From contig RPFO01000027.1 in NCBI GenBank assembly GCA_009746045.1, positions 5,453,924-5,517,923 of the forward strand: a stretch of 64,000 nt of DNA, written 5' to 3'. The position numbers were made by a program, and so were the translations under genes. The notes beneath the pieces were generated by a model, which worked only from the letters and a program-made list of their open reading frames with translations, was not told where the DNA came from and did not search any database. Of this stretch, positions 9,235 to 57,090 are shown piece by piece (position 1 is the stretch's first letter; every line of letters begins with the position of its first letter). The DNA comes from Mesostigma viride. Lineage: Eukaryota > Streptophyta > Mesostigmatophyceae > Mesostigmatales > Mesostigmataceae.

Positions 9235-9690
9235 TAGAAGCCAAGACTCAAGAAGTTTGGCGCATCTGCTTCTCTTAACAGACTGTAGAATGAGAGCATT
9301 CGCGAAATAACGGGATGTGGTGATTGGGAACCCTGTCAATGCAAGTGGGAATCATATATCAAGTGAGACAACTATTCCTGGATGCATGGCGATCCAACGC
9401 CGTGGAAGGACTACGTTTGCAGGTGAAGAATGGAAAGCTGTGCATTAATTAATTAATTAAACACGTGCTCCCGTTGGGTAGTCACGAAGCATTTTAATGT
9501 ACTCCAACATGTGCATTAAATGAGTTGTCCCACGCTAATATAAGTAATCGGCTCACTTCATAAGTAATTGGCGGCCGGCGGCAGCGCACCCCTGTGGAGC
9601 ACACGGGGGAGCAGCCTTTACCGCTGGTTGGCCTACAATGTTTCCTAGGACAGGTGGGGCCCGCGCCCCCCCCCCCCCCCCCGGCCGCTC
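9235..9690. other. 3' flank of the LPA1-like gene with a retroelement tail
   Basis: No gene. A TTAATTAATTAATTAA run (9446-9460) followed by ACACGTGCTCCCGTTGGG is the 3' tail and hairpin of a minus-strand retroelement of which only about 100 bp remain. A run of about 20 C lies at 9666-9682. Confidence 0.5.
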
Positions 9691-10320
9691 CACCCTGAGA
9701 TGGCCGCCCGTCTCAGTGTTGAGCACTGGACCCCCCCCCGGCCCCCGCCGCCCGCGGCGCCCTTTTCGGCTGCGGACTACCAACTCCCCGCCTTGAAGGA
9801 GGGCTACCTTGCAACCAACGACGTCGTCAATCCACCCCTTCACTTTGGAGGAATTGGACGGCGCCCTTGCTTGCTTGCGGTACGATGCGGCCGGGCGGTC
9901 GGTGCCGACCACCTTTCGGCCGAGCTGCTCAAGACCCCCCACCTGGCAGTGCGGGAGCTTCTGCTGGCGTTCTGCAACCATGTCCCATGCTCTCTGATGA
10001 GCCCCCACCTGCTGAGTGGCAGACGGCCATCCGAGTCATGCTGTACAACAAGGGTTCTGCCGCTGACCCCAGCAAATATCGGGGTGTCTGCCTCTGGACA
10101 GAGCGCCGCGCTGAAGGTGTTCATGCACATGATGCTGCGGCGGGCTCCGCACTGCGCTGGACCCTCACCTGGGTGAGTCTCAGATGGGTTTTTGCAGTGG
10201 CCGTAACACTGTCATGGCTGTCTTTGTTGCGCGCCGGTTGGTGGAAGAGGTGCTTCGCATTTGCCTTGATGGTTTTCCGCTGGTCTTCATTTTTGTCAGG
10301 GTGTGGAGCCGTTGCACCAC
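9690..10320 (+). mobile_element. Decayed LINE fragment (reverse transcriptase, N-terminal part)
   Basis: Pieces of one protein appear in shifting frames: LEELDGALACLRYDAA, GADHLSAELLKTPHL, VMLYNKGSAADPSKYRGVCL, GRNTVMAVFVARRLVEE. This is the start of a LINE reverse transcriptase (compare 54.8-56.9 kb). Several frameshifts and a truncated 3' end make it a pseudogene. Confidence 0.75.
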
Positions 10321-10324
10321 ATCC

Positions 10325-10475
10325 CGAGCCACGAGATAGCCATGGCTGATGGCGGCGCCAATAACTTTCACGTTTGGGCTCCAAATTTTGCCGCGACTAT
10401 CACAATCGCTTCGTCTAAGTTCTAAGACGCACACGCTGATACACTTTCCCGAAGCTATCGCGTAATATCCTCCAC
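10325..10475 (+). mobile_element. 5' UTR fragment of the ORF1-type LINE element
   Basis: The stretch from GAGCCACGAGATAGCCATGG to TATCGCGTAATAT parallels the 5' UTR of the element at 20.8-20.95 kb (GAGCCACGAGGTAGCCATGG onward). It includes the ATCACAATCGCTTCGTCT word. It ends just before the point where the ORF1 start codon would be. Confidence 0.6.
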
Positions 10476-10847
10476 CCCCCCAAGGAATATGTGCTACATG
10501 ATCTCCCAGTTTGAATACCGCATCCACTCTCTCTCCCTTCTTTGGACTGCCATGCAGAACAAGACGCGGTGGAAGAGGATTGTCAAGGCTCACACGCCCG
10601 ACCCTGTGGGCAAACCACCTACCCCCAAGCGGAGTAGGCGTTTTGATGAGTAGGGTAGTTAGGATTTTTCTAGACTAGCTAGATTAGCGTTAGGTTAGTC
10701 CGATTACGCGGCTCTCGCCACTCCACCACCCATCAAGGAATATGTGCTACATGATCTCCCAACGGAGGCATGTTATAATTTAATTTTAATTTAATTTAAT
10801 GATCTCCCGACGGAGGCATGTTATAATTAATTTAATCGCGTAATATT
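10476..10847 (+). mobile_element. 3' end fragments of a LINE with two hairpin/tail units
   Basis: An open frame ending at TAG 10651-10653 has the basic terminus TRWKRIVKAHTPDP...RSRRFDE. After it come two copies of a 3' end: CTACATGATCTCCCAACGGA with an ATAATTTAATTTTAATTT tail (about 10741-10800), and a shorter copy at 10801-10845. The CTCC-CAAC-GGAG hairpin is the same core seen at other retroelement ends in the window. Confidence 0.55.
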
Positions 10848-10915
10848 ATGACGAGGAAATGCTCCCCTACGCAACGCAGCCTGGCGGCTGCGCTGGGCCC
10901 TGACAATGCGTCTGC
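10848..10915 (+). mobile_element. Start of an ORF1 gene, interrupted by a LINE insertion (continues at 12593)
   Basis: ATG at 10848 begins MTRKCSPTQRSLAAALGPDN, homologous to the ORF1 starts at 20953 and 51106. The frame stops being ORF1 at 10916, where a LINE is inserted, and resumes after a duplicated 11-bp target at 12593-12603. The resumed part reads SAAQAAALPSGPDGSS. Confidence 0.75.
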
Positions 10916-12592
10916 CTTGCACAGTCCTGCGGCCTGGCAACACAGTTTTCGCACGATGCTGTACAAGAACAAGGGGTCGCCTGCCGACCCCGGCAACTAC
11001 AGAGGGGTATGCATTCAAAGTGCCCCCCTCAAGCTTCTTATGCGGCTCATCCCATGATGTGAACCGCCTGCGCACGGCCCTGGACGGTCACCTCAGCGAG
11101 ACTCAGCACGGCTTCCGTTCAGGTCGCAACACAGTACAGGCGCTCTTCGCTACTCGCCGACTGGTGGAGGAACTGCAACGCCTTCAGCCTGGTGAGTCCC
11201 CTTTGCACCTTGTGCTGGTGGACTTCATCAAAGCCTTCGATTCGGTTTTCTGGCCTGCGCTTTGGGACATCCTCGAGTTGTTCCGGATCCCCCGCCCCCT
11301 GATTGCTGTCATCCGCAACCTGTATGAAGGGTCCACCACTTCGGTGCGCACTTCTTACGGGACCACGCCCCCATGCCCTTTACAGAAGGGTGTGTGGCAG
11401 GGCTGCGTGCTGTCGCCCTACCTGTTCATTATTGTTGTCGAATACGTAATGATTCAGGCGCGCAAGCGATTTGCCCGCATCGTGGGCGGGGAACCAGGAG
11501 TGCAGGTTGCTGACAAATTCTGGCATGGCGGTGCGGACACGGAGATTCGGCTGGCAGACATCATCTACGCAGACGACACCACCCTCTTCGAGGACACTGG
11601 GCACGTGCAGACATGGCTTGACTGCCTGGCTCTCGAGGCCCGTGCAGTGGGCTTGAGGTCAGCAAGAAGACAGAGGCCCTGGCGGTTGGGCTCACCAACT
11701 CACCGCCGCCCCTCTATCTCCTAGACGGCTCTCGAGTCCAGTATCGGGACCGCGTTAAGCTGCTAGGCAGCCTGCTCCCCAGCTGCGAGGCCGATGTGGA
11801 CCATCGCATCTCCCTCGCCTGGCACGCTTTACGCCAGTACCGGGCCCTTTGGCGCAAGCCCCTGGGCAAGATCGAGAAACAGGACCTGTTCAAGGTCCTC
11901 GTCCTTCCTGTTCTCACGTATGGGGCCGAGACGTGGACCCTCACCGCCGACCTGGCCCGCAAGCTGGACGGCGCGGTCACCAGCATGCTGCGTTCCATTT
12001 TCAGAGTAGGATATGCTGCTCACGTCCGCAATGAGGACCTGTACCAGGGCATGCCATATATCACCAGCACCATTAAGCAACGACGCCTGCAGCTAGTAGG
12101 GCACCTAGCTCGCACCAACCAGCTAGGTAGACACCTCACGTGGCCCCCCCGCAGGACTGAGACCAGCCCAGCCTGGCCGGCACCTCCTGACGTGGGCTGG
12201 GCCCAGTGATGTTAGACGCCGCAAGGCCCGCACCTTCAAAGAACAGCTAGTAGAGGACATGGGGGGCCTAGGCCTCTCCGTGATTTGGAAGAAGATGATG
12301 GACAAGGCCAAGTGGGCCCTGCAGGTCATAGAGGACAACGAGCCCCCCCCTGCGGGGAAGCGCCCGCGTGTGCAATCCCGTGGGAGGCACGCCAGATAGC
12401 TCCCCTAGGGCAGCGTGCGGCTGCCTACTAGATAGATGTTGTAGTTAGCGTGCTGTTAGATAGATGTAGTATTTAGCCGATGTAGATAGATTAGACCGGT
12501 AGGACTGTTTGCACCCATCCATCCATCCATCGGGGTTAATGCTCCGTGACTCCCCAACGGGAGCACGAGTCTAATTAAATAATTAATTAATT
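10916..12592 (+). mobile_element. 5'-truncated LINE with reverse transcriptase, 11-bp target-site duplication
   Basis: The insert is bounded by AATGCGTCTGC at 10905-10915 and 12593-12603. It encodes the reverse transcriptase and C-terminal domain of ORF2 with a few frameshifts. Visible motifs are GSPADPGNYRGVCIQ, GFRSGRNTVQALFATRRLVEE, LVDFIKAFDSVFW, WQGCVLSPYLFIIVVEYVM, the catalytic IIYADDTTLF, EVSKKTEALAVG, and LTYGAETWTLTADLARKLDG. A final RRLQLVGHLART word is typical of APE-type LINEs of the RTE/CR1 sort. The 3' UTR carries (ATCC)n at about 12518-12531, then the stem-loop GTGACTCCCCAACGGGAGCA, then a TTAATTAA tail. The 5' end lies in the middle of ORF2. The copy is dead by frameshift. 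Confidence 0.9.
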
Positions 12593-20794: not shown

Positions 20795-22534
20795 CAACCA
20801 CGAGCCACGAGGTAGCCATGGCTGACGGCGGCGCTCATAGCTTTCACGTTTGAGCACCGAATTTAGTCGTGAATATCACAATCGCTTCGTCTTTCTAAGA
20901 CGCACATGCTGAATTGCTGATATAATTTTCCGACGCTATTACGCAATATACGATGAGCAAACGCCCATCGACGCAACGCAGCCTGACGGCTGCGCTCGGC
21001 ACTGAAAATACGTCTGCAGCTACGGCTGCAGCTTCGCCATCAGGGCCGGAAGGCGGTGGTGACACTAGTCGCGCACTGGTGGTCGCCCAGAACCCTCCCG
21101 GGCTCTCCTCGCCCTCTGCATCGCCTGACCCAAAGCGCAGTCGCCCAGGCGAACCTGGCTGGTCTGAGCGTGATTTTGACGTCGACAGGCTCTTTACCAC
21201 CTTCGACGTCAACAGGCCTGCCTTTTTCGACATGCCACCCATCAAGATACTGGAGCTCGTGTTTTACGGGTCACACGCCTCACTGCTGGCCCTGTGCCAG
21301 CAACTCCATCTCAACACCCACTTTTTCCGCAACGGAGCTGACGGCCGGTTTTCCCACCGCGTATCAGACGTCCCTTCTTCGACCATTGAACCTGGCCGGC
21401 TGGTCTCGCCCCCGCCTTCAGCTCGCAGCTCTCTTTACCCTCACTAAGCGCTCGGCCGAGGACCTTCTGCACCCCGCCCCCATTACCGAATCCACCTTCG
21501 TCCACCATCTCCACGCCGCCCTCTCACAGCACGTGACGCCCATTGCTGCAGATATGTGGCGGCAATTGGCGGCACGCTGGCTGCTGAGCTCCCCACCATC
21601 CCCACCGCCACCGCCGCCCTCCTCGCCTCCCCCCCCCCCCCCCCTCCGCCTCCACCGACTCCATCACCGCCCAGCTCCGCGACATCGACCAGCGTCTTAA
21701 GGACAACGCCATTGCTATCGAGGTTCTGCAGAACACCGCAGGCCTCTGACACCGCCCAGGCGGTGAAGGACATTGCCGCCAAGCCAGCCCCGGCTGGCCT
21801 GGCCGGCGATGCTCCTCCCATCACCACCTGGGCGGACATGCTTAAGCAACACACCACCTCCACCACCTCCGCCGTCGCAGCCCAGCTTCAACGGCAGACG
21901 CTTGACCTCCGCGAGGAGGCCGAGCTCGCCAAGCGCAGCCTCAACGTCATTGTCAAGAATCTCAAGATGGAGGAAGGTGAGAATTCCGAGAAGCTTGCGC
22001 GTGCTTTTGAGAGAGAAATCCTTGATCGCATGGGCCTTACTGGTGAGATCGAGCTGGTCGCCCACCGCCTTCCCCGCGCGCGGGGTAAGGCAGGGCCGCC
22101 CCCGCTCCTTCTCACCTTTAAGACCCCGGCGGACAAGATTTCTTTTCTCAGACGCCGCAAGCGGCTCGAGAAGACTCTCTTCACACTTGATGACGACTTG
22201 ACCCTGGCGCAGCAACAACGGCGACGGGAGCTACGGCCGACCTACCTCCAGCTCCGGCAGACCAAGGCGGGGCAGCCGGTGTACTGGAAGGGGGCGGCCA
22301 TCTACGTCGGCCACAAGCCCTGGCAGGCGACCCCCGCGGCCCCAGCGACTCCAGACGCCCCAGCTTAGTTAGGGGAATACAGCAGTAGTAGTGTAGAATA
22401 GATAGACCGTGGCCATGTACATGTACGCCTCCTAGAGGCCCTATCCCAGCTAAGCCACGCGCTTTATTTAGCCATGTACATGTGTGCCTATGATGAGCCA
22501 CACTCCAGATGATGCCTAGTTTTATTTAGTTATG
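20795..22534 (+). mobile_element. LINE-like element encoding ORF1 only (left part; 3' end resumes at 30035)
   Basis: The 5' UTR (about 20795-20952) leads to ATG 20953 (MSKRPSTQRSLTAALGTENT). ORF1 then has one or two frameshifts near 21345-21560 and a long frame to TAG 22366-22368. Its C-terminal part has AELAKRSLNVIVKNLKMEEG, LARAFEREILDRMGLTGEIE, RARGKAGPPPLLLTF and FTLDDDLTLAQQQRRREL. VYWKGAAIYVGHKPWQA follows. That is the RNA-binding layout of LINE ORF1 proteins. No reverse transcriptase follows; the 3' UTR begins at once. A 7.5-kb DNA transposon is inserted in the 3' UTR at 22535, and the UTR continues at 30035-30360 with hairpin CATATACTCCCAACGGAGTT. Confidence 0.85.
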
Positions 22535-22616
22535 AGGGGATTCATAAGTGTTTGCTCAATTTCACAAGTCTTCAAATGAGTAAAAAAAAAATCTTTCAGA
22601 TCTGAGGGTACCTAAA

Positions 22617-24215
22617 GCTGGACTGTTGCAGGCAGCATGTAGACCATGAAAATAGACCACCCACAAAAATTGGGCTCATTCTGAGCTCAAATGGTGACAT
22701 GTGACAGCATACATGTGCAGTTTTTCGTCATTTTCCCCCTTTACTTACATGAAACAAATATGAATAGTGGACAAATGAACTCATTTCAGGCTGGATTCTT
22801 GCAGGCAGCATGTAGACCATGAAAATAGACCACCCACAAAAATTGGGCTCATTCTGAGCTCAAATGGTGACATGTGACAGCATACATGTGCAGTTTTTCG
22901 TCATTTTCCCCCTTTTCTTACATGAAACAAATATGAATAGTGAACAAATGAACTCATATCAGGCTGGATTCTTGCAGGCAGCATGTAGACCATGAAAATA
23001 GACCACCCACAAAAATTGGGCTCATTCTGAGCTCAAATGGTGACATGTGACAGCATACATGTGCAGTTTTTCGTCATTTTCCCCCTTTACTTACATGAAA
23101 CAAATATGAATAGTGGACAAATGAACTCATATCAGGCTGGATTCTTGCAGGCAGCATTTATACCATGAAAATAGACCACCCACAAAAATTGGGCTCATTC
23201 TGAGCTCAAATGGTGACATGTGACAGCATACATGTGCAGTTTTTCGTCATTTTCCCCCTTTTCTTACATGAAACAAATATGAATAGTGAACAAATGAACT
23301 CATATCAGGCTGGATTCTTGCAGGCAGCATGTAGACCATGAAAATAGACCACCCACAAAAATTGGGCTCATTCTGAGCTCAAATGGTGACATGTGACAGC
23401 ATACATGTGCAGTTTTTCGTCATTTTCCCCCTTTTCTTACATGAAACAAATATGAATAGTGAACAAATGAACTCATTTCAGGCTGGATTCTTGCAGGCAG
23501 CATCTAGACCATGAAAATAGACCACCCACAAAAATTGGGCTCATTCTGAGCTCAAATGGTGACATGTGGCAGCATACATGTGCAGTTTTTCGTGATTTTC
23601 TCGGTTAACTTCCATGAAACAAATATGAATAGTGGACAAATGAACTCATATCAGGCTGGATTCTTGCAGGCAGCATGTATACCATGAAAATAGACCACCC
23701 ACAAAAATTGGGCTCATTCTGAGCTCAAATGGTGACATGTGACAGCATACATGTGCAGTTTTTCGTCATTTTCCCCCTTTTCTTACATGAAACAAATATG
23801 AATAGTGAACAAATGAACTCATTTCAGGCTGGATTCTTGCAGGCAGCATCTAGACCATGAAAATAGACCACCCACAAAAATTGGGCTCATTCTGAGCTCA
23901 AATGGTGACATGTGGCAGCATACATGTGCAGTTTTTCGTCATTTTCCCCCTTTTCTTACATGAAACAAATATGAATAGTGAACAAATGAACTCATATCAG
24001 GCTGGATTCTTGCAGGCAGCATGTATACCATGAAAATAGACCACCCACAAAAATTGGGCTCATTCTGAGCTCAAATGGTGACATGTGACAGCATACATGT
24101 GCAGTTTTTCGTCATTTTCTCGGTTATCTTACATGAAACAAATATGAATATTGAACAAATGAACTCAGATCAGGCTGGAAACTTGTAAGCAGCATGTAGA
24201 CCATCAAACAGTATA
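22617..24215 (+). repeat. Left subterminal array of a 173-bp satellite, ten copies
   Basis: The word GCTGGA begins at 22617, 22790, 22963, 23136, 23309, 23482, 23655, 23828, 24001 and 24174: nine intervals of exactly 173 bp. Units differ by a few substitutions (for example GTAGACC, CTAGACC or GTATACC, and TTTTCTTAC versus TTTACTTAC). The first and last units are the most diverged. There is no coding potential. Confidence 0.98.
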
Positions 24216-24219
24216 GCAG

Positions 24220-25079
24220 ATGGGCCATGTCGCAACTCCACGTGGAGTGGGCGATGCCAAACATGCGTCGTATCGCATGGTGGCACCCCTCCACGTGGTG
24301 CCGTCGCCCATGCACCAGCACCTCCGCCACAACCGGCACCGAGCATTCGTATTTCCCATGGTGTCGGCCAAACTCTGGCAAGGTGACTGTCACATGCTCC
24401 AGGCCGGCAGCGACAAAGAGCCCCACCACCAGCTGCCGGCGTTCATTGCAGGACAGCCCCCAATATTTGCTACGTGCCGCCTCCCATATTACAAAGGATG
24501 ACAGGGGGCTCTGGGGATCTTGTATGCATCTATGTTTACAACACCGCCCGCGCAGCTCTGCCGCGATCACATGGGCATTACAGGCGTATTTCAGTACTGT
24601 TGTTGCTGATGATTTGAATCCTGCTGTGCGGCACCCACCACCTACATCATCATCGTCATCACTGCCGATATCCAGATGGTCGACCTGATCGTCATGATCA
24701 ACGTCTACTACGACGTTGTAGGCCTCGTACAAGGGGAATCGACGCTGCCTGGGCATCAATTCCCCTTGTACGAGACAGGCCCCTGGTGGTCGGGACGTAA
24801 GAGCAGCAACACCAAAACGGCAACGAACATTCTCCAGCAAGCTGCCTCATCCCCGGCTAAAACAGGGGGCCTGGGGCAAGGGTCTTTTTCAATTTCCAAC
24901 GACAGAAAATTCCAGCGCCCCCCACCATATTCGTCACGGCGCCTCCAATAGTCTGAACCTTCACGACCGCCCATGGCAGCTCTCGCAATTATGTTGGCAC
25001 GCCTCTCCCAATTATGCCTCTCCTGCCTCGTTTGTGGCTCGATCTTCCGCCGCCTCAGCGCGGCGCATGAGAGTTCCAT
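24220..25079 (-). pseudogene. Transposase-like fragment, truncated by the satellite
   Basis: Two overlapping minus-strand frames appear to be one broken or spliced protein. The first runs from ATG 25079 (MELSCAALRRRKIEPQTRQE) to about 24840. The second runs from about 24840 into the satellite and holds an acidic run (DIGSDDDDD), RGRCCKHRCIQDPQ, WEAARSKYWGLSCNERRQL, then HHAIRRMFGIAHSTW. The pattern CC-x2-C, then R-x2-Y/F-W-x-L-x3-E-R, then H/C-x-A-x3-x-GI resembles the N-terminal region of uncharacterised transposase-like proteins common in algae and oomycetes (from memory, not searched). The catalytic part that should follow is absent: the frame runs into satellite sequence at about 24200. 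Confidence 0.5.
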
Positions 25080-25740
25080 TCAGAATTCATTCACCGACCC
25101 CCAACACTGACCGTACAGCCTGAACATGCAAAAAGGTCTTGCATTCTCAATGAAAATGGGCTGTAACGGCATTCCATTGAGAATTCCATTGAGAACTCAT
25201 TCACCGACCCCCAACACTGACCGTACAGCCTGAACATGCAAAAAGGTCTTGCATTCTCAATGAAAATGGGCTGTAACGGCATTCCATTGAGAATTCCATT
25301 GAGAACTCATTCACCGACCCCCAACACTGACCGTACAGCCTGAACATGCAAAAAGGTCTTGCATTCTCAATGAAAATGGGCTGTAACGGCATTCCATTGA
25401 GAATTCCATTGAGAACTCATTCACCGACCCCCAACACTGACCGTACAGCCTGAACTGGGCTGAACATGCGAAAAGGACTTGCATTCTCAATGAAAATGGG
25501 CTGTTGCGGCATTCCATTGAGAATTCCATTGAGAACTCATTCACCGACCCCCAACACTGACCGTACAGCCTGAACTGGGCTGAACATGCGAAAAGGACTT
25601 GCATTCTCAATGAAAATGGGCTGTTGCGGCATTCCATTGAGAATTCCATTGAGAACCCATTCACCGACCCCCAACACTGACCGTACAACCTGAACTGGGC
25701 TGAACATGCGAGAAACGAAGGACCATCCAAAAAGTGAAAC
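25080..25740. repeat. 110/120-bp minisatellite between the two divergent genes of the transposon
   Basis: TCACCGACCCCCAACACTGA begins at 25091, 25201, 25311, 25421, 25541 and 25661. The first three intervals are 110 bp and the last two 120 bp; the longer unit has an extra TGAACTGGGC-type insert and GTTGCGG instead of GTAACGG. The array fills almost the whole space between the minus ATG (25079) and the plus ATG (25951), so it occupies a divergent promoter position. Confidence 0.95.
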
Positions 25741-25950
25741 AGTCCGCGGCGTTGTCCGAGCCTCGCATGCAAATGGCATTTGAATGAACAAAGCGCAGTG
25801 ACCGTCGTCTTTGCGCGCGCGCGGGTGGAGGTGCGTGCACTAGTCTGCCAAGAAAACACTGCAGGGCATGCGCGCACGAACACAACGAGAACGTGCCAGC
25901 CTATGACGTCGTCGACGATGAAGTTCGTCGTCCGCTAAATTGTAGGGGAT

Positions 25951-27754
25951 ATGGCGGAGTATCTGAGTGAAACAGAGAGGCTGCGGGCAGAACGACTGTG
26001 TTATGGACGAACTGCGGGTGTTTGCCTCTTAGGCCATGCCGATGGGGCAGACAACAACTGTCGGGGCCGAAATGGTGAAAGCTGCAACCTATTTGCTCAT
26101 GCGATCTGCGTCAAGGCAATTGACGGGAATAAAAATGGGGAGGAGTGGTGGTGCCCAGGATGCCGTGACCCCGGTGGCGTGAAAGTTGCCAATCTCCAAG
26201 CTTCGGGTTCGAACGGTCATCATGAGGTCGGCACTCCCCCCCGGCCCTGGGGTCCGCTGCTAACAAGTTTCTTCCAAACACCGACAAAGACCGGCGCATG
26301 TTGATGGATGATTCCGGATGCAAGGCCGTTGACGACTTCGAGAAAGCACATCACCAGGCACCCGGCAGGAAGCTAGTGTTTCCTCGTACTACCGACGGCC
26401 ATGCCACCCAGGAATCAGATGCACGCAGCAAGGAGGACGTGCCGTCAATTCCGGCTGATGCCAGCAAGGGCGTTCAATCGAGTGATGAAAAGTCGACCGC
26501 GGGGGTGGTGGACGATGACCTACCCGACTCCTCACACCCCCGCGACTCCGCGACTCCCCCCTGTGCAGGCGGTGCAGAACATGGAGACCACGCTAACCTT
26601 GACGAGGCCCAGCCGGCAGCAGCTGCCATGCCTGGCAGCGCTAGCAGTGCGACACGGCGCGCCAGCTTTGATGCAGCGAACCTCAAGTCCGGCGACCAAC
26701 TTGCGTCGGAAGCTCCAGCGTTTATGACGTGGCTTCCCTCCCCTGATGGCCCCTCCCCTGGCCATCTCCGTGTTGGACAATTGGTTCGCGTCGCCATCCC
26801 TCATAAGGAGTTTGGCAAACCCCTCTTCCCCAAGGTAATTCTTGGGTTTCATTTGTACCCTGGAGGAGCGGGGATCTTCCTGGCCAACACACCGTACGGA
26901 AGAAAGGACATCATGGAAAAGGCTGTCAAGAGCGGGGGGACCAAGCTGACGCCTGATCCCCCAGCATATTACGTGAACTGGGCTCAGCAATCCCAGGCCC
27001 TTCGGCCCGTCTTCATGGAGGATGGTGCTGTCGCCACGGTTGGCGACCTGACCGTCCTGCGCGACCGGCTAGATGCTGTGTGCGAATACCTGCCAAACGC
27101 AGGTCTGGCGGCGCTTCGAGCCACATCTGGTGGCTTGATCTACACAAACAAAGGCGAGGCCGTCAAGTTTGACTTGGTAAAGGACTTCCCAAAGCGCGTC
27201 GCACCACCACCAGCTGCCACGGCACCACCACCAGCTGCCACTTCCAGCCAACCTCGCGCTAACAAAAGCGTGCCAGAGGCGCAGCTGGTTCACCCCACAC
27301 GCTCCAAGCGTGTGAAGGCGGACAGCCAGCAGCCAACTGCAGAGCCCAAGTGCGGTGTTCAAGTGCCAGTCAAGCCGAGCACCGAAGCCAGGGCGAGTGG
27401 TGTTCGCAACAAGAGGCCTCCCTCGAGCTCGGTATATGTACGCTGCGATGACTCGGGTGAAGAACGCGACTCGGACCAAGAAGTAGCGAAGCTACGCCGC
27501 ACAAGCAGTACAACGGACCAGCACAAGCAGTACAACGCGGAGGTTGCGCAGCTGCAACGCAAGATGCAGGAGATGGAACAGCAACAGCAGCAGCAGCAGC
27601 AGCAGCACCAACAGCAGCAGCAGCAGCTCCTACAGCAGCTGCAGCAGCAGCAGCAAATGCAGCAGCAGCAGCAGCCTTTGCAACAGCAGCAGCAGGAGCC
27701 GCCGCCGCAGCAGCTGCTGCAGCCACAGCAGCTGCTGCAGCTCTCACAGCTCCT

Positions 27755-27796
<42 letters not shown>

Positions 27797-28518
27797 GCAG
27801 CCGGCGCCGCCGCCACAGCAGCAGCAGCTGCTGCAGCAGCTCCTACAGCAGCTGCAGCAGCAGCCGCCGCCGCCGCACCAGCAACTACAGCAGCTGCTGC
27901 AGCCGCCGATGCAGCAACAGCTGCTACAGCAGCAGCATCCGCAGCAGCTGGTGCTGCAGCAACTGCAGCAGCTGCTGCAACAACAGCAACACTATCGCCT
28001 CCCACTCCCTGCCGCTACAACGACTACACGAGTAATTGACGGGGACGCCGAAGTAGCGCCCCTCGCGCAAGTGCAGCAAATGCTGGCTCAGATGCAACTT
28101 CCCCAGGTATGTCCTTTCCTATTGTGATTTCTTTGAATCAACATAATCTGCCTTTGTGAATAGTTTGTTGGAGTATATAGGATATATTTGTTTGGTTTGT
28201 TGATTATTCCTTCATATACCGTGCCCTAAGGCATGCTGGCTTGATGTGCTGGGTGGTGGTGTGCAGGTTGGTGGACGCCGGCTCCCATCCATTGACCCCT
28301 TCTCTGGCACGGTCTCTGTGGCGGTGGCTGCGCTCAACTCAATTGCGACACTGGCCATGTCTGGGAACACGACGCCCGTGCCACGATGGCGCCCGGTGAC
28401 CACGTGGGTGCCATCATCCGTGTCAGCTCCGCCCAACTATGGTGTCGGCCGCCCATTGCAGCAGTGGCCAAACTTCTCCAATGACTGGACTATGAGCAAT
28501 GACTGGTTTACCAGCTAA
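25951..28518 (+). CDS. PHD-finger protein with coiled coil and long polyglutamine tract (transposon cargo)
   Basis: ATG 25951 starts MAEYLSETERLRAERL. A C4HC3 zinc finger follows: Cys 17, 25, 37, 45, His 50, Cys 53, 68 and 71, with WWCPGC at its end, as in PHD domains. The frame must shift once, near the C-run at 26234-26241, to continue as ALGSAANKFLPNTDKDRRML. A second conserved-looking region starts HLRVGQLVRVAIPHKEFGKP (about 26761) and runs to EAVKFDLVKDFPKRV. A charged segment, a short coiled coil (VAQLQRKMQEMEQ) and about 140 codons rich in CAG (27570-28010) follow. One intron, 28107-28266 (GTATGT...GTGCAG), joins MQLPQ to VGGRRLPSID; the stop is TAA 28516-28518. The function is unknown; a chromatin-reader type role is inferred from the finger only. 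Confidence 0.7.
27570..28010 (+). repeat. CAG-rich trinucleotide tract (polyglutamine)
   Basis: An interrupted CAG/CTG repeat of about 440 bp within the PHD-polyQ gene, with longest pure run about 27755-27794. Leucine and proline codons interrupt it. The same tract opens poly-Ser and poly-Ala frames in other phases, which are not genes. Confidence 0.95.
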
Positions 28519-28737
28519 GCTTATACTAGTTTCTGATGTATTATTAAGTGAGCCAGTGCTTCTAGTAGAAGGTGATGTCTTAGTACTTATTGTATATTCA
28601 TGCTGGACTGAAAGAGTACGTGGCGTGCCACTGGCAGCCGAGACATGTGCCTTGTCGATGGCCTGGGTTGCTCTTGTGCCATCCCATTTCATCTCAGATT
28701 GAATCATGAAGTTTCATGATTCAGTTGATGCTTGCAA

Positions 28738-29935
28738 GTTTCCAGCCTGACATGATCGATCGAGTTCATTTGGTCGCACAAAAATGTTTTATTCAAGAGA
28801 ACAGTGGCAATGGCATCAAACTGCATTGTTTTCCTTTCATTTGTCACCTTTTGAGCTGTAAACAGTCTATTTTCATGGTCTACATGCTGCCTGCAAGAAT
28901 CCAGCCTGATATGAGTTCATTTGTTCACTATTCATATTTGTTTCATGTAAGAAAAGGGGGAAAATGACGAAAAACTGCACATGTATGCTGTCACATGTCA
29001 CCATTTGAGCTCAGAATGAGCCCAATTTTGTGGGTGGTCTATTTTCATGGTCTACATGCTGCCTGCAAGAATCCAGCCTGATATGAGTTCATTTGTTCAC
29101 TATTCATATTTGTTTCATGTAAGAAAAGGGGGAAAATGACGAAAAACTGCACATGTATGCTGTCACATGTCACCATTTGAGCTCAGAATGAGCCCAAATT
29201 TTGTGGGTGGTCTATTTTCATGGTCTACATGCTGCCTGCAAGAATCCAGCCTGATATGAGTTCATTTGTTCACTATTCATATTTGTTTCATGTAAGAAAA
29301 GGGGGAAAATGACTAAAAACTGCACATGTATGCTGTCACATGTCACCATTTGAGCTCAGAATGAGCCCAAATTTTGTGGGTGGTCTATTTTCATGGTCTA
29401 CATGCTGCCTGCAAGAATCCAGCCTGATATGAGTTCATTTGTTCACTATTCATATTTGTTTCATGTAAGAAAAGGGGGAAAATGACTAAAAACTGCACAT
29501 GTATGCTGTCACATGTCACCATTTGAGCTCAAAATGAGCCCAATTTTTGTGGGTGGTCTATTTTCATGGTCTAGATGCTGCCTGCAAGAACCCAGCCTGA
29601 TATGAGTTCATTTGTCCACTGTTCATATTTGTTTCATGTAAGAAAAGGGGGAAAATGACGAAAAACTGCACATGTATGCTGTCACATGTCACCATTTGAG
29701 CTCAGAATGAGCCCAATTTTTGTGGGTGGTCTATTTTCATGGTCTAGATGCTGCCTGCAAGAATCCAGCCTGATATGAGTTCATTTGTTCACTATTCATA
29801 TTTGTTTCATGTAAGTAAAGGGGGGAAATGACGAAAAACTGCACATGTATGCTGTCACATGTCACCATTTGAGCTCAGAATGAGCCCAATTTTTGTGGGT
29901 GGTCTATTTTCATGGTCTGAAGGCTGGATGACCCC
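28738..29935 (-). repeat. Right subterminal array of the 173-bp satellite, inverted, about seven copies
   Basis: CCAGCCTGA words begin at about 28749, 28901, 29073, 29246, 29419, 29592 and 29765, with 172-173-bp intervals after the first. The sequence is the reverse complement of the left array. The outermost unit passes into the TIR-proximal sequence near 29930, as on the left. Confidence 0.97.
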
Positions 29936-30034
29936 TGCTTTATTGACAAATATAAGGACAAATATAAGGATTTAATCACATGTGGAAAAATTGAGTAAAA
30001 TTTATGAAATTGAGCAAACACTTATGAATCCCCT

Positions 30035-30362
30035 CTATGTTGTGCCCATGCAGGGAGTCACTCTCTGCTGAGAAGCCATGCCATAGCTCTTGTATAGCCA
30101 TGATGATCTTCCCCCACATGCCACGCTCCCCCTTAACCGGGCATAGCGCGATACATCATGAGGGTGCAGGTGCCTTGGTGCACCTAGAGCAAGTGTTGTT
30201 TACATTCCCACCCTTGCAGGAAGTAGCTTAGAATGTATTATAGGCTCATATACCCCTTCTCAGGCTATGTGCTACATATACTCCCAACGGAGTTATCAAA
30301 GAGACAACTAATTATATATATTATGTTCCTTTATATATATTATGTTCCTAATTAATTAATTA
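30035..30362 (+). mobile_element. 3' end of the ORF1 element, continued after the 7.5-kb insertion
   Basis: The sequence matches in order the 3' UTR copies at 33.6-33.9 kb and 50.3-50.6 kb (minus strand). Landmarks are GTTGTGCCCATGCAGGGAGT, GGTGCACCTAGAGCAAGTGT, CTTGCAGGAAGTAGCTTAGA and the terminal hairpin CTACATATACTCCCAACGGA. An AATTAATTAATTAATTG tail follows. No gene. Confidence 0.85.
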
Positions 30363-33602: not shown

Positions 33603-33975
33603 ATTAATTAGGAACATAACTCCGTTGGGAGTATCTGTAGCACATAGCCCAGAGAAGGGGCATATGGCCTATAGTACATTCTAAGCTACTTCCTGCAAGG
33701 GTGGGAATGTAAACGACACTTGCTCTAGGTGCACCAGGGCACCTGCACCCTCATGATCTATCACGCTATGCCCAGCTAAGGGGGAGCATGTCATGTGGGG
33801 GAAGATCATCATAGCTATACAAAAGCTAGAGCGTGGCATCTCAGTAGAGAGCAGCTCTCTGCATGGGCACAGCATAACTAAATAAAACTAGGCATCATCT
33901 GGAGTGTGGCACATCGTAGGCACACATGTACATGGCTAAATAATGCGCGTGGCTCAGCTGGTATAGGGCCTGTAG
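33603..33975 (-). mobile_element. ORF1-element 3' UTR copy, minus strand
   Basis: It starts with the hairpin AACATAACTCCGTTGGGAGT and proceeds through the 3' UTR landmarks in reverse order to CCTGTAGAAGGG. It contains the uninterrupted target site (CATAACTAAATAAAACTAGG) of the 7.5-kb transposon. No coding part is left. Confidence 0.8.
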
Positions 33976-34007
33976 AAGGGATATGTGCTACATGTACTCC
34001 CAACGGA

Positions 34008-35552: not shown

Positions 35553-36000
35553 GTGGGAATGTAAGCTACCCTTGATCTAGGTGCACCAGGGGCACCTGCA
35601 CCCTCATGATCTTCACACTATGCCCAGCTAAGGGGGAGTATGTCATGTGGGGGAAGATCAGCATGCCGCATGGCTATACAAGAGCTAGGGCATGGCTTCT
35701 CAGCAGGGAGGGACTCCCTGCTTGGGCACTGCATAATTAAATAAAGCTAGGCATCATCTGGAGGGTGGCTCATCATAGGCACACATGTACATGACTAAAA
35801 AGGCTAGGCCTAAGCTGGTATAGTGCCTGTAGTAGGCGGGCATGTACAAGGCCACTGTCTAACTATTCTACACTACTGCTGTATTCCCCTAGGCTGGGGC
35901 TGGAGCTGCTGGGGCCGCGGTGGTCGAGGGGGTCGCTTGCCAGGGCTTGTGGCCGACGTAGATGGCCGCCCCCTTCCAGTACACCGGAGTTATGTTACTA
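35553..36000 (-). mobile_element. Remainder of the interrupted ORF1 element, with ORF1 C-terminus
   Basis: After the duplicated target the 3' UTR continues to about 35895. A minus-strand coding piece follows whose peptide, TGVYWKGAAIYVGHKPWQAT, is the ORF1 C-terminus. It is 5'-truncated at about 35983, where GAGTTATGTTACTAATTAAT begins. Confidence 0.8.
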
Positions 36001-37018: not shown

Positions 37019-40000
37019 TCACCCTTCCTCGATGAAGAATCGCGCGCATGGCTCAGGGAAGCGGTACCCGAAGCACACATAGTCCTGCACGTACGTGCGG
37101 CAGAACTGGAGCAGCAGCTGTGGGTGATGGTACAAGAACTGCTCAAACACGGCAGTCGTGGGCATGAACACGTCCTTCTTCTCCCCCAGGTTCATGTGCT
37201 GGAAGCCGAGACTTGACCGGACGGTCCGGTTCACCCCCAGCTTGTCCATGAGAGCGTCGAGGTCCTCCTTGAAGCTCTCCCCCCGGATCAGCCGGTGCAC
37301 TCGCATCTGCTCGCCGTCACCCTCCGCGTCGGCGACCATCCGTGTGGTCAGAAAGCTAGCCTCAGGCCGCGCGTGGTACCCTGCCAGGGGGAACAGGTCG
37401 TCGTACAGGCCGCACTCGGCATGCGAGATGTAGCGCGCGAAGAGGCCCAGGATCTCCCGCGTCTTAGCACGGTACTTCTTCTGGAGGAGCAGCGTGGCAG
37501 CAGCACGGGAGCAGTGGCACGCGGCCATCGTCGAGAAGAGGTCCGGCCAGAACACGTCGCGCGTGTATGCTTCTCGGAACGCGGAGATGAAGCGACCCAT
37601 TGGCTCCCGCGACATGCCCACGTGGATGTACGTGAGGTCGGGCCCTAGGGAGGTCACGCGCGGCGCCCCCCCCTGGGCGATGCAGTGGGGGACCGTGACG
37701 TTGACCAGAGCCTCGTTGCGGTCGACGTAGCTCGCGTTGCGGAAGTTGTCGAGGACGAAGTTGGTGAGCGAGTTGCTGCCGGCCTTCCAGACAAGGTTCA
37801 TGATGAAGTGGTAGTCGTGCTCGATTAGGTACCTGCCAGGGAGGTTGGGGAAGGATGGGGAATTCGCAGGAGCAGAGGGAAGGTGGGGGTTAGAGGGGTG
37901 GTTTCAGACTTTAAGTTGGGGAGGGGGGGGGGGGGGGGGGGGGGATAGGGGGGGGGGGGGGGCGGGCGGCAGTGGCCTCTTTGCGGGCAATAATGGGTGG
38001 GCAGGATATTGACTAAAAGATTCTGGGTTTAGAAGATTGGTAGTACTTTGAAGATTGGTAGGTAAGTGGCTGTGCATGGCTGGGGGTAAACAATGGTTTG
38101 GGGTGCCAAACCGGGGCGGGACGGGGGGACGGGTGGACAGGGGGGGGCCGGGATAACTTTAGATATGGAAGGGAGGAGGAAATGGGGCAGGAACAAACAA
38201 GAGGAGACGGTGCCGCAATGGGATCTAATGCGTTTACGTGCATGGGGGAATGTAAACGAGCTAATCCTTAGTCGAATTCTAAAGGGGGTTGGATTAGGAA
38301 AAGGTGGTTGAAATCTTAACTCAGACTCGCCTCCCGAACCCTCTTCCCCCTGGCCCAGCCCCGCCGGCCCCCTGCCCCAGCCCTATCTGCTATCCCACAC
38401 ACACCACAGCGGTCCCAGACCACAAACCGTATAGAGCCCTCACAGCCTTTCCTTATTGAGGGCTCACAGCCTTTCCTTATAGAGCGCTCACAGCCTTTCC
38501 TTATAGAGCGCTCACAGCCTTTCCTTATAGAGCGCTCACAGCCTTTCCTTATAGAGCGCTCACAGCCTTTCCTGATAGAGCGCTCACAGCCTTTCCTGAT
38601 AGAGCGCTCACAGCCTTCCCTTGTAGAGCGCTCACAGCCTTTCCTTATAGAGCGCTCACAGCCTTTCCTGATAGAGCGCTCACATTTGCAGCCCAACAAT
38701 TGCATGCCAGCTGTCGCTAGCACCGATTTCACCCCTAGTACCCACCTGTTGGCAGAAGTGACGTGATTCGCTACTACCCGCCCATGGGCAGAGCAGATGT
38801 CAGTACTAGCCCCTACCCACCAGCTTGCAGACAAGGCGCGTCTACACAGGAACAAGCAAGCCGCATCTACTCAAGCGCGGGCGCTGGCAGCATCAGGTGT
38901 TCATTAGGGTCATCGATGTTCATATGAATACCTAGACAATTAGGTTCCTCTATGTTGAGAACGCCACAAAAAGCTTGGGATGTGTGGGTGAATGAGGGGG
39001 TATTAGCGGGTATGAGAAGGTATGAGGAGGTATGAGGCGGTATGAGGCGGTATGGGGGGGGCATGAGGGGGTATGAGGCGGTATGAGGTATGAGGCGGTA
39101 TGAGGGAGGCATGAGGGGGTATGAGGGGGTATGAGGTATGAGGAGGTATGAGGAGGTGTGAGGAGGTGTGAGGAGGTATGAGGGGATGTGAGGCTGAATG
39201 AGGAGGTATGAGGAGGTATGAGGGGGTGTGAGGCGCTATGAGGGGGTTTGAGGGGGTGTGAGGGGGTATGAGGGGGTATGAGGGGGTGTGAGGCGGTATG
39301 AGGGGCTATGAGAGGGCATGAGGAGGAAATGGGGGACACAGGTGGGAGGGAAGAGGGGGTGTGGGGCACGGGAGAAGACATGAATGACAAAGACATTCCC
39401 AGCTTCGTGCATCCATCCCTAACCTAATGAAAAGGAACACATGTCTGCTACCTACAACGACAGGCAGTGACTTGTATTTTGAGTCTGAACACAAGGACTG
39501 GTGGCATTGCTGCGACACAACTTGGCCCGTTTGGGCGTCATGAGATGCTGTGATGATAGATGGGAGCCAACACGAAACAGGCTGTGACATGCTGCTGGCA
39601 AAGATCTGAAAATGAACAACGGGTTTCTCACGCTCACGCTAGGTGACCATGAGGATGCGCGAGCCGATGGTGGAATCCTGGCATGCGCATGTGGCGAACG
39701 TACGAGTGACACGAGGTTTGGCAGTGTGACTTCAAAATGACGGCCTTGGCATCCTCGTACAATGTCGCGCAGCGAGCCGGCTTGGGCCACATCGCATCCG
39801 TGTAGACCCATATTCTATTCTTAGCTAGTTCCGCATTGTACTTGGCTTCGGGCATTGCCTGCATGCCACCATCCGCCGCGCGTTGCATCCAACGCGCCAG
39901 CCGTCGGTTCCTGGACTCCAGCTCCTCCGCAGGCACGTACTCTCCCGGAGGGCATTCTGCGCCAAACTTGGGATTCAGGTCCTGGAGATTCTCGGGCACC

Positions 40001-40074: not shown

Positions 40075-41384
40075 TTCGTAGCTACATTTTGCAGGTTGTG
40101 AACCCTAACAGGATGAAATCCCCCGCTGCCTCCATACAGCAACCACATCCGCAGTCAGTATTTGAGTAGGCGGTCGATGGAGTATGATGTCGACTACTCA
40201 TGTCAACAGCACTAATGCCTCTGAAACGTAGGTATGTGCAATGCTCGGGAAAATGCAAGGAAGAAGGTGAAAATGCCGTGTAAATGGCACCAGTGAGACA
40301 TGACGCAGAACGGCTTATCCCGCAAGCTCAACTGGCCAAATATTGTTGGGAAATACGACATGAATGCCTTCGAAAGCTCGAACTAGTAGATGGGAACCTT
40401 CAGAAGTAGACGCCTCCCGAAAGGCAGCCGTTAGTGCTGGCTTCTTCATAAACACACCCGGGCGGACTTGAGGTATAAAGACTTTTACATTAAGGCCTTA
40501 TAGCCACCAGCCACCTGGCCAGATCCTCAGGCTGGACAGAATCTCAAGATCTGGTCAACGTATCAATTATGTTCAGTCTACTTACACGGTCAGCCTACTT
40601 ATACGGTAGACTCTGCTGCCTCTGTGCGCAGTGCGGCGTGAGCTTCAACTAACTAACGGTCATTGGCTCATTGCGTGGGTGATCCCGGATCCGCTCTGGC
40701 AAATAGTTAGCGTACTTTGCACATTTGGCGTCATTCCGCTAATAATTATAATCGAAACACTGGACTTGCACCGTGCACGCGGGTTAACTGGCTGCTCGGA
40801 CTGCCATTTTGGCTGGGCGGAGCCACACGGGTGACACTGGTGATCGTGGCTTGGTGCTTCATGAGGAGACACGCGCGTTGGATTGATAGAAAATGATATT
40901 ACTTGCCCACTAGTTGCCCAAAATTTGTGTGGGCAAGATTAGAGATACGTGAGGACATATTTGTTGACTGTGTCAGCAAAGAGCGCCTGAGTGTCATCAG
41001 TTCAATTAGCATTGGGAAGGTTCGTTGTAACCTTCTATGGCCAATTAAACGCAAGGATTTCTGAAGTCCGGCCGCTTCGCCTCTCTGCGCTTCCCTACGC
41101 AGCCCACTTGCCTCCGCGGTGTCTCCCTTCCGCCCACGTGACCTTCCCACACCAAACTACTGCTCACCTTGCCTTATGTACACCATCCATGTCTATTTAC
41201 GTTTCTGTGCAGCCGCTAACAACCCATCAAAATCGGAAGGGAAAGCGTCAGTTCATTGTAGCCAACCGACAAAACCCAGCACGTACGGCATGCACAAATT
41301 TTGCAAGCTCCGGCGGTCGGCGGAGTAGTTCCTGACGTTGATTAGGATGGCAATATATCAAACGCCAACTACGACCGCCAAAGA
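40075..41384. other. Intergenic region between divergent sulfotransferase and glycosyltransferase genes
   Basis: It should contain both promoters. Around 40555-40600 GTCA(G/A)CCTACTTA.ACGGT and CAGTCTACTTACACGGT repeat at 20-bp spacing. CTCTGCTGCCTCTGTGCGCA near 40611 resembles the end of the foldback element at 14.85 kb. No gene seen. Confidence 0.4.
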
Positions 41385-42749
41385 ATGAGGCTGTTGGGGA
41401 TGGCATCGCTGGCTTATTGCTGGCCATTCGTGAGCCGATGGCTGGCCGCCTCCATTGTTCTTCTCATTTGTTCTCTATGGCAACCCCTGCGCGTGTCCGG
41501 CTTCTCCTGTGCGGACAAAATTGAGGAGCTCAACGATGCTGCCCGCCACGTGGCACAAAACCAGGCCTCACTGGCCGACCTTCCGCCCCCCTTCCACGAC
41601 TACGCCCGTTTCCACGCGACCTCTCTGCATGCTGCCGCCCGCAACGAGGGCGCCGGCGTCCGCTACCTGGTGTATTACTGCCAGACGGGCAACGAGTGCG
41701 GCGGGCTGGGGGATCGTTTCAAGGGCATGGTGACCGCGCTATATTTGGCCATGGTGACCCGCCGCGTGCTGCTGCTGCACCAGTGGCCCATCCCGCTGTC
41801 CGACTCACTACTCCCCATGGGGGTCGACTGGCTCACGTGGGCCGAGTGCGTGCAAAGCCGCAGCACACGCACGCTGACCGCGTTCACGCTCCTCAAGGCG
41901 TGTGAGCACTCGGGGCTCAAACCCGAGGAGCTCATCAAAGGGGCGCTCGGCAACTTTGAGGTGGTGACACTGCGCGTGAGGACCCCTCTTTGGACGGCCA
42001 TGCTCGCGTCCAATCTCGCCCGGCCGCTCGTCCGCCGGAACAAGATGGGCGATCTCCTGAGGGAACGAGAGACCACCAAGCGGCGGGGGATTCTGTTCGC
42101 ATGGGCTTGGCGGTTCCTGTTCCAGTACAGTGACCGGCTACTACAGTCCCTCGACAATCTCTCCTCGCAACTGGGGTTGCCGGCCCTTGGGTCGGGCATA
42201 CCCTGGCTGGGTGTCCAGATCCGCATCGGCGGCGCCGGCGCGGACTATACCGACCCAGAACGGTACAAGCTGTCCGATGTGGACCAATTCGCCGCGTGTG
42301 CGGCGGATCTTAAGGATGTCCTTCGACCGGAGGGCGAGCCTGGGGGGGGTCTTCCCCGTGGGCAGGGACTCGCATCATCGCCCGTGTACGTGGCATCAGA
42401 CCAGTCATCGGCGGTACCGCTATTCATAGAAGCGATGGTTCGACGCGGGTGGAACGCGTCGAGCATCAAGTATAACGACCAGCCGGCGTTTCACGTGGAG
42501 CGAAGCGTCATGGGGAACGTGCACACGTTGGCCAAGGCGCGTGGGCTCACCGTGGACACGACGGCGGAGATGGTGCTGCTCTCGCGCGCCTCGTGCATCG
42601 TGCACGGGGAGAGCGGGTTCGCGACTGTCGCCGTCGACATGTCGCGCGACGTGCGGGACGCGGGGCGGTGCGAGCGGCTTTTGGAGGAGTGCCGGCCTCA
42701 AATGGGCATTGGGCCGTGGGAACGGTTTCATCAAAGTGATCAAACATAG
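41385..42749 (+). CDS. Fucosyltransferase-like glycosyltransferase, 454 aa, paralog 1
   Basis: Single exon from ATG 41385 to TAG 42747-42749. The N-terminus has a membrane anchor (WLAASIVLLICSLW, about residues 19-32), as in Golgi type II enzymes. CGGLGDRFKGMVTALYLA (105-122) is the nucleotide-sugar-side motif seen in fucosyltransferases of the FUT8/NodZ/plant FUT1 fold. GVQIRIGG (276-283) fits the H/Q-x-R-x-G loop. VYVASD (334-339) and VDTTAEMVLLSRASCIVHGE followed by SGF fit the C-terminal donor site. The exact CAZy family is uncertain and the acceptor unknown. The paralog at 47282 is colinear throughout the enzyme domain. Confidence 0.8.
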   Translation: MRLLGMASLAYCWPFVSRWLAASIVLLICSLWQPLRVSGFSCADKIEELNDAARHVAQNQASLADLPPPFHDYARFHATSLHAAARNEGAGVRYLVYYCQTGNECGGLGDRFKGMVTALYLAMVTRRVLLLHQWPIPLSDSLLPMGVDWLTWAECVQSRSTRTLTAFTLLKACEHSGLKPEELIKGALGNFEVVTLRVRTPLWTAMLASNLARPLVRRNKMGDLLRERETTKRRGILFAWAWRFLFQYSDRLLQSLDNLSSQLGLPALGSGIPWLGVQIRIGGAGADYTDPERYKLSDVDQFAACAADLKDVLRPEGEPGGGLPRGQGLASSPVYVASDQSSAVPLFIEAMVRRGWNASSIKYNDQPAFHVERSVMGNVHTLAKARGLTVDTTAEMVLLSRASCIVHGESGFATVAVDMSRDVRDAGRCERLLEECRPQMGIGPWERFHQSDQT

Positions 42750-43582: not shown

Positions 43583-44763
43583 GTTAATTAATTAATTAGA
43601 CTCGTGCTCCCGTTGGGGAGTCACGGAGCATTAACCCCGATGGATGGATGGGTGTGTGCAAACAGTCCTACCGGTCTAAGCTATCTACATCAGCTACCTA
43701 CGACATCTATCTAACAGCATTCTAACTACAACATCTATCTATACAGCACTGGCGTGCCTCCCACGGGCTTGCACACGCGGGCGCTTCCCCACAGGGGGGG
43801 GCTCGTTGTCCTCTATGACCTGGGCCCACTTGGCCTTGTCCATCATCTTCTTCCAAATCACGGAGAGGCCTAGGCCCCCCATGTCCTCTACTAGCTGTTC
43901 TTTGAAGGTGCGGACCTTGCGGCGTCTAACATTAGGGGGCCCGGCCCACGTCAGGAGGTGCCGGCTAGGCTGGGCTGGTCGCAGTCCTGCGGGGGGGCCA
44001 CGTGAGGTGTCTACCTGGTTTGTGCGAGCTAGGTGCCCTACTAGCTGCAGGCGCCGCTGCTTAATGGTGCTGGTGATATATGGCATGCCCTGGTACAGGT
44101 CCTCACTGCGGACATGAGCAGCATATCCTACTCTGAAAATGGAACGCAGCATGTTGGTGACCGCGCCGTCCAGCTTGCGGGCCAGGTTGGCGGTGAGGGT
44201 CCACGTCTCGGCCCCATACGTGAGAACAGGAAGGACGAGGACCTTAAACAGGTCCTGTTTCTCGATCTTGCCCAGGGGCTTGCGCCACAGGGCCCGGTAC
44301 TGGCGTAAGGCGTGCCAGGCGAGGGAGATGCGGTGGTCCACATCAACCTCGCAGCTGGGGAGCAGGCTGCCCAGCAGCTTGACGCGGTCCCGATACTGGA
44401 CTCGAGAGCCGTCTAGGAGATAGAGGGGTGGCGGTGAGTGGGTGAGCCCAACCGCCAGGGCCTCTGTCTTCTTGCTGACCTCAAGCCCCACTGCACGGGC
44501 CTCGATAGCCAGGCAGTCAAGCCATGTCTGCACGTGCCCAGTGTCCTCGAAGAGTGTGGTGTCGTCTGCGTAGATGATGTCTGCCAGCCGAATCTCCGTG
44601 TCCGCTCCGCCATGCCAGAATTTGTTAGTAACCTGCATCCCTGGTTCCCTACCCACGGTGCGGGCAAATCGCTTGCGCGCCTCAATCATTACGTATTCGA
44701 CCACAATAATGAACAGGTAGGGCGACAGCACGCAGCCCTGCCACACACCCTTCGGTAAAGGGC
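43583..44763 (-). mobile_element. 5'-truncated LINE with uninterrupted 335-codon frame, inserted in another LINE's tail
   Basis: The minus strand is open from about 44746 to 43739. It carries WQGCVLSPYLFIIVVEYVM, IIYADDTTLFEDTGH, SKKTEALAVGL, YGAETWTLTANLARKLDG, QRRLQLVGHLARTNQ and a C-terminal KARTFKEQ-like region ending RHASAV. Only the second half of the reverse transcriptase remains. The 3' UTR, (ATGG)n, hairpin and TTAATTAATTAATTAG tail are at 43583-43740. The 5' end meets a (TTAA)n run at 44764 that is the tail of the next LINE. Confidence 0.88.
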
Positions 44764-56935: not shown

Positions 56936-57090
56936 AATTTACGAGGTAGTAATTTACGACATAGTAATTTACGCTGTAGTAATTTACGACGTAGTACTCT
57001 ACGAGGTAGTAGTTTACGAGGTAGTAATTTACGAGTTGGTAATTTACGATCCCGGTACTCGGTCCCGTAGGTTACGACGTCGTATGCTTC
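56936..57090. repeat. 15-bp minisatellite, right part, diverged
   Basis: Eight or so units of GTAGTAATTTACGA(G/C) with more substitutions than on the left, ending at about 57050 in GATCCCGGTACTCGGTCCCG. Confidence 0.85.

Follow-up and report, generated by a model that had tools for sequence, protein, structure and literature searches.

A transposon with inverted satellite-array arms in Mesostigma viride: a probable internally deleted copy from a family encoding a putative DUF7869 transposase

What kind of mobile element has inverted satellite arrays for arms and carries genes between them? The question is raised by a 64,000-nucleotide stretch of the alga Mesostigma viride (assembly GCA_009746045.1, contig RPFO01000027.1, positions 5,453,924 to 5,517,923; G+C content 54%), referred to here as the window and taken from a 439.9-Mb genome in 2,243 contigs. 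Positions 22534-30035 of the window (7,502 bp in total) are occupied by a DNA transposon with terminal inverted repeats (TIRs). We put at about 0.88 the probability that it is a non-autonomous member, with an internal deletion, of a recently active cut-and-paste family, the figure applying jointly to the full explanation developed below.

A first-pass annotation, made from the sequence without database searches, had described perfect 30-bp inverted termini enclosing 7,500 bp. All 30 bases are indeed identical when counted from 22535 and 30034, but G 22534 and C 30035 form an extra complementary pair outside this match, so that the perfect terminal repeat is 31 bp long and the element correspondingly longer. 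The features of the element and of its target sites are as follows.

22531..22533, no strand, left target-site duplication (TSD) TAT, present as a single copy in the empty site at 33876
22534..22564, plus strand, left TIR of 31 bp, end type A (GAGGGGATTCATAAG...)
22617..24208, plus strand, A arm, 173-bp satellite array, 9.2 copies
24210..24231, minus strand, 22-bp scrap from the C-terminal part of the transposase gene, which an internal deletion has joined to the first exon
24223..24756, minus strand, first-exon remnant of the DUF7869 putative transposase gene
25068..25714, no strand, 110/120-bp tandem array between the two divergent genes
25951..28518, plus strand, PHD-like/polyglutamine (polyQ) gene, with a probable intron at 28107-28266 (placed by eye)
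28865..29926, minus strand, B arm, inverted 173-bp satellite array, 6.1 copies
30005..30035, minus strand, right TIR of 31 bp, end type B
30036..30038, no strand, right TSD TAT
33616..33994, minus strand, paralogous empty target site, uninterrupted
35553..35987, minus strand, second paralogous empty target site

The insertion itself is documented by these empty sites. When the flanks of the element are joined, they match 33994-33616 and 35987-35553 on the minus strand, in alignments that run through the junction. The uninterrupted copy reported at first pass near 33,875 was thus confirmed (at about 33,876), together with another paralogue at about 35,735. The flanks are repeated elsewhere in the window, and are perhaps pieces of a reverse-transcriptase retroelement.

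The 30-bp terminus was found 149+144 times in the genome (293 matches at no more than three mismatches), and the reversed control pattern 0+0 times, which argues that the termini are not a product of chance. Two subterminal types, A and B, were distinguished, and the window element has A at its left and B at its right end. A 47-bp pattern for type A gave 69+72 matches (141; control 0), leaving by subtraction about 152 termini that are not type A. From these two figures the family is estimated at roughly 140-150 elements in the 440-Mb genome. The second copies whose existence the first-pass annotation had made the test of its proposal are thus plentiful, and their arrays vary in length.

An exact 3-bp TSD, and no longer one, flanks 36 of the 39 copies with both ends read (14/16 in a first batch, 19/20 in a second, then 2/2 and one nested copy with AAA on both flanks); the copies lacking it are C446:4470848, C1690:2412898 and C224:873193. 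The first batch was drawn from 23 candidates, seven of which had one end unlocated and were left out of the 16. The missing ends of four (C1215:1074xxx, C335:5886236, C1446 and C1579:5172526) were located later and counted in the second batch, and three whose second end was never located (C1546:153634, C1646 and C1480) lie outside the 39. At a chance of 1/64 apiece, 33 duplications in 36 copies, as counted before the final three, have a P value of about 2e-56. The first 33 TSDs comprise 26 different triplets, AT-leaning (36% G+C) and with no consensus. Duplications of 4-5 bp, as expected at first pass, were rejected on these counts, and also because the single base that separates the 30-bp match from TATG in the window is part of the terminus.

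Two copies deserve separate mention. The one at C2:4791260-4797205 (L142, L015), flanked by AAA/AAA, has inserted into the 173-bp array of a second copy, and this second copy adjoins a further terminus-like sequence. The copy at C2:1465885 (L011+L120; 16.8 kb) contains retroelement-like pol frames, recognised by eye, nested about 8.1-11.4 kb from its left end.

The satellite arms are as regular a feature of the family as its termini. In the window, the A array has a period of 173 bp (96% match) and the inverted B array a 98% match, and their 9.2 and 6.1 copies are close to the ten and about seven counted at first pass. Units of 173 bp follow the terminus in 29 of 30 loci (L009-L038, the opening 30 in a list of 100, with L029/L030 being the window element and L015/L016 one single end); the exception, L014, has a 120-bp unit in their place. 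Type B termini with a 120-bp-type array were seen at L014, L054 and L062, all three with a transposase first-exon match nearby. The array starts at a near-fixed distance from the terminus, at position 84 in type A and at 98, 100, 106 or 110 in type B. The number of full units per arm ranges from 0 to 9 (34 arms, being 38 less the duplicates L029/L030 and L015/L016), which is a lower bound where the array reaches the end of the fetched stretch (within 60 bp of it in 8 of the 38 arms). It is very unlikely, on the evidence of the assembly sequence, that the arms are an assembly artefact of the kind considered at first pass: arms of this kind are found again at numerous insertion sites that are flanked by 3-bp duplications.

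Among 199 full units counted, 102 different ones were found, the total including the window arms twice (L029/L030) and one other arm twice (L015/L016). Nine of ten listed A arms have one and the same variant as their outermost unit (L005 is the exception; L029 duplicates the A arm of the window element, and L016 that of L015), and the inner units vary between copies. A constant outer unit with differing inner ones fits arrays that grow and shrink internally. Regular homogenisation between the arms of one element is not supported, since in five elements compared the B arm nearest to the A arm was its own in only two and another element's in three, and exact units common to both arms occurred only in C1735 (three variants).

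What the window element has lost was revealed by a fuller copy, the only one read whole, at C1469:635976-647698 (11,723 bp; TSD TGG). It has the same ends, arms and PHD-like gene, and holds the segments of the window element plus parts absent from it. Positions 8700-10588 of this copy (L070) are a 1.9-kb insertion flanked by TTAA and bounded by GGGGA(G/C)GTGG inverted ends. We rejected it as part of the element, as it has its own ends and target sequence and is absent from the window and C2:1465885 copies; it is another transposon, with TTAA as its target, that lies within the C1469 copy, which without it measures about 9.8 kb.

The C1469 copy contains two genes arranged head-to-head. The putative transposase gene lies on the minus strand in pieces: (i) a first exon, which is the transposase-like fragment already recognised in the window and now attributable to a DUF7869 protein, (ii) a 753-amino-acid (aa) frame with DUF7869 (PF25273; E value 2.3e-14, 53.9 bits against a curated cut-off of 26), joined to the first exon in gene model P0001, and (iii) a third frame with a Tudor-like match below threshold (20.3 bits against 27.2), only tentatively joined to the second. 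The EukProt protein Mesvir1 Mv26525-RA (M. viride) matches the transposase frame with 100% identity over 95% of the query. The plus strand carries a 719-aa frame with a polyQ tract, whose PHD match is sub-threshold (14.2 bits against 24; N-terminal 88 residues scanned). A 120-bp array (5391-5880) lies between both genes, and the 110/120-bp array of the family may serve as their shared promoter region. Frames of exactly 753 aa were found in 12 of the 17 listed DUF7869 matches covering profile positions 32-138 (the other five measure 459, 694, 727, 923 and 4,243 aa; the diverged C1107:4560786 (L117), matching other profile positions, is outside the 17), and for eight of the 12 both flanking ends were located, at a spacing of 9.2 to 15.0 kb.

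In the frames of the C1469 copy, DUF7869 was the only Pfam match above cut-off and no known transposase family was detected; NCBIfam (a prokaryotic set) likewise gave none for P0001. Five aligned proteins all retain D210, D303, D342 and D344 of P0001, and these invariant acidic residues stand, as read by eye, in an RNase H-like order compatible with DDE/D enzymes; structure models were too weak to demonstrate a DDE/RNase H core. We infer in part, from these residues, that the DUF7869 protein is most likely a DDE/D transposase. The copy with a fuller transposase, the search for which had been advised in order to name the superfamily, was therefore found, but it did not supply the name.

Compared with the C1469 copy, the window element is an internally deleted derivative. 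Its 22-bp scrap matches positions 1641-1662 of the C1469 copy, where the next homology begins only at 4492, and its PHD/polyQ frame, set against the 719-aa frame of that copy, is broken near 26,240. The window fragment including the deletion junction peptide is present with 100% identity in eight copies on eight contigs (C25, C1043, C335, C446, C1579, C1735, C2034 and C2133). Both ends were read in six of these (five of 6.3 to 7.7 kb and C1735, whose coordinates give about 7.8 kb), and the 3-bp TSD differs in every one of the six; the deleted form therefore moved after the deletion, and was presumably mobilised in trans. A second derivative, with no 173-bp array at its B end, was found at C1813 (6,100 bp; TSD TGA) and again at C2:4785847, these two copies having one junction in common. 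Such copies have moved, so the B array is dispensable in cis. The first-pass view, of a DNA transposon whose arms are inverted satellite arrays and which carries a PHD/polyQ gene along with a transposase fragment, is thus upheld by both the sequence and the genome-wide family.

The observed termini, 3-bp TSDs, copy number, arms, gene layout (from the single fuller copy) and dispersal of the deleted form can be accommodated in a single scheme. The autonomous form would probably be about 9-10 kb long, with one type A and one type B terminus, normally a 173-bp-unit array inward of each in opposite orientations, and an interior comprised of the head-to-head DUF7869 putative transposase and PHD-like/polyQ protein genes with the 110/120-bp array between them. 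The DUF7869 protein would be the catalytic DDE/D transposase, cutting at GAGGGG, inserting with a 3-bp stagger and acting in trans on deleted copies such as that of the window, and the PHD-like protein may have an accessory part, binding DNA or chromatin. For the arrays, the best explanation is that their units are repeated binding sites for one of these proteins, array length shifting through unequal exchange or slippage. The model for such a role is Galileo, a Foldback-like element of the P superfamily, whose long inverted repeats contain inner tandem repeats with extra transposase-binding sites, as described in the available part of PMC4079207, where such a role is considered for Tetris as well. 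The Galileo transposase differs in having a THAP domain, none of which was found in the scanned frames of the Mesostigma family. As arrays are absent at the B end of moved copies, they are there helpers or by-products rather than essentials. That array expansion produced the arms as a side effect, without any part in transposition, is rather unlikely: the mobility of copies without a B array and the range of 0 to 9 full units per arm (some of them lower bounds) would suit this, yet arrays have been retained at 29 of the 30 terminus loci examined, though they can be lost.

It could also be asked whether the arrays belong to the element at all. The 173-bp arrays do resemble satellite DNA, and a host satellite invaded by unrelated transposon ends, or two arrays flanking genes by chance, might look similar; this is extremely improbable, and a stand-alone satellite was rejected, because the arrays begin at a nearly constant distance from the terminus and accompany TSD-flanked copies to many different sites. 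In the subset of the genome's arrays that was checked, one locus (L004) first seemed to have an array without an exact terminus, which proved to be present with a single mismatch. Satellite arms as such are a known, Foldback-like architecture, and the family has the long inverted repeats, built of tandem repeats in variable number, by which it is recognised. The first-pass statement that the element matches no known class therefore applies to the whole combination, with its TSD and DUF7869 protein, and not to the arms. The closest system is Tetris of Drosophila virilis, likewise Foldback-like, with inverted arms of about 220-bp satellite-like repeats whose arrays vary in repeat number and alter in length by unit duplication (PMC4079207). 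In the available part of the same paper, Tetris has TSDs of 8-10 bp, is placed in Mutator by its authors, is known from three structurally complete copies, and has neither conserved open reading frames (ORFs) nor an autonomous partner; in two later papers, as far as their text was available, the name was found in reference lists only. The Mesostigma family differs in its 3-bp TSD, its more than 100 copies and the presence of a copy encoding a probable transposase. A classical Foldback/Mutator-like element moved by a Mutator-like element (MULE) transposase encoded elsewhere, which the Tetris-like arms might suggest, is accordingly very improbable: the duplication of 3 bp in 36 of 39 copies lies outside the 8-10 bp of Tetris (PMC4079207) and the 4-10 bp given for MuDR and the Mutator/MULE group in the available part of PMC10045372, and the fuller copy encodes a DUF7869 protein. 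No Pfam match to a MULE domain was obtained in the frames scanned, which a divergent MULE could escape.

With inverted terminal repeats and a fixed 3-bp TSD, the family has these two properties of TIR class II (cut-and-paste) elements, and its DDE/D transposase is putative. We give an even chance to its being a divergent member of a named superfamily with short TSDs (EnSpm/CACTA, Zator, Academ, Chapaev or Harbinger) whose transposase is Pfam DUF7869. The TSDs of Academ and Chapaev/Chapaev3 are 3-4 bp long, EnSpm/CACTA elements have repeated subterminal binding sites and a two-gene layout, and the target consensus of PIF/Harbinger is TWA. TSDs of 3 bp are known in EnSpm/CACTA (CMC), PIF/Harbinger and Zator, and PIF/Harbinger also combines a transposase with a second gene, for a DNA-binding protein (PMC10045372 and PMC12730594, both in their available parts). 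DUF7869 is without a published assignment in the literature searched, where no paper naming DUF7869 or PF25273 was found, and may carry a Repbase name. Against membership, the termini are GAGGGG..CCCCTC and not the CAC..GTG of EnSpm/CACTA, which also differs in its known transposase and in its short subterminal motifs in place of 173-bp repeats. The partner protein of PIF/Harbinger is of the Myb/SANT type instead of PHD-like, no Harbinger Pfam match was obtained, and the varied, AT-leaning TSDs follow neither a TWA nor a TTAA consensus. Known transposase families are also missing from the Pfam matches and, for P0001, from those of NCBIfam. The other reading, that DUF7869 and its PHD-like partner represent an undescribed superfamily of two-gene cut-and-paste transposons, abundant in Mesostigma, with a 3-bp TSD and built-in tandem arrays (as end recognition sites and shared promoter), is possible and unproven, and we hold it only tentatively. 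A literature search combining Mesostigma, transposase and terminal inverted repeat returned only arthropod MULE and mite work, and the Mesostigma genome paper (PMC7027972) gives, in its available part, only repeat totals and methods.

The association of the two genes extends beyond the family of the window. The genome yielded at least 150 DUF7869 matches (with 150 of the 275 candidates scored), and 0 of 14 control genomes gave one. In three divergent DUF7869 families (L071, L144/L114 and L145/L115; 34-37% identity to P0001), a frame on the opposite strand lies upstream of DUF7869, again head-to-head. These frames open with a C4HC3 pattern resembling, by eye, a PHD finger, and Pfam PHD matches all three (best E value 2.6e-4; the sole bit score shown falls under the cut-off). 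The PHD-like stretch of the window family matches a profile of the three with an E value of 5.9e-5 and a probability of only 65%. Intergenic tandem arrays are present in three of the four families, including that of the window (110/120, 149 and 42/116 bp), and the fourth has none there. In one divergent family, the PHD-plus-intergenic block recurs at full length and 99-100% identity at nine places including its own, so this family is probably mobile too; its ends were not seen.

The remainder of the window contains several other features. ORFs with reverse transcriptase similarity (RVT_1) were identified at 10852-11724, 43739-44764 (just below the cut-off) and 54761-56938, and a sulfotransferase-family ORF (Sulfotransfer_2, E value 1.2e-7) at 37019-37903. 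Two similar ORFs without a Pfam match are located at 41346-42749 and 47228-48931, the latter with a repeated C-terminal tail derived from a 24-bp tandem repeat. Tandem arrays comprise a 109-bp repeat at 60456-60974 (4.8 copies at 100% match, with a 22-bp repeat inside it) and an ATGG array at 63183-64000 (204.5 copies, 100% match), which reaches the window end.

In Tetris, only defective copies were available to the describing paper, so that the origin of satellite arms, the proteins that bind them and their role in transposition could not be tested there. In M. viride, arms and long open frames coexist with a series of deletion derivatives, all within a single alga. The family suggests a transposase function for DUF7869, tied to a recurring PHD-like partner gene. 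On the tentative reading as an undescribed superfamily, satellite DNA would be both generated and carried by an element that has kept a transposase of its own.

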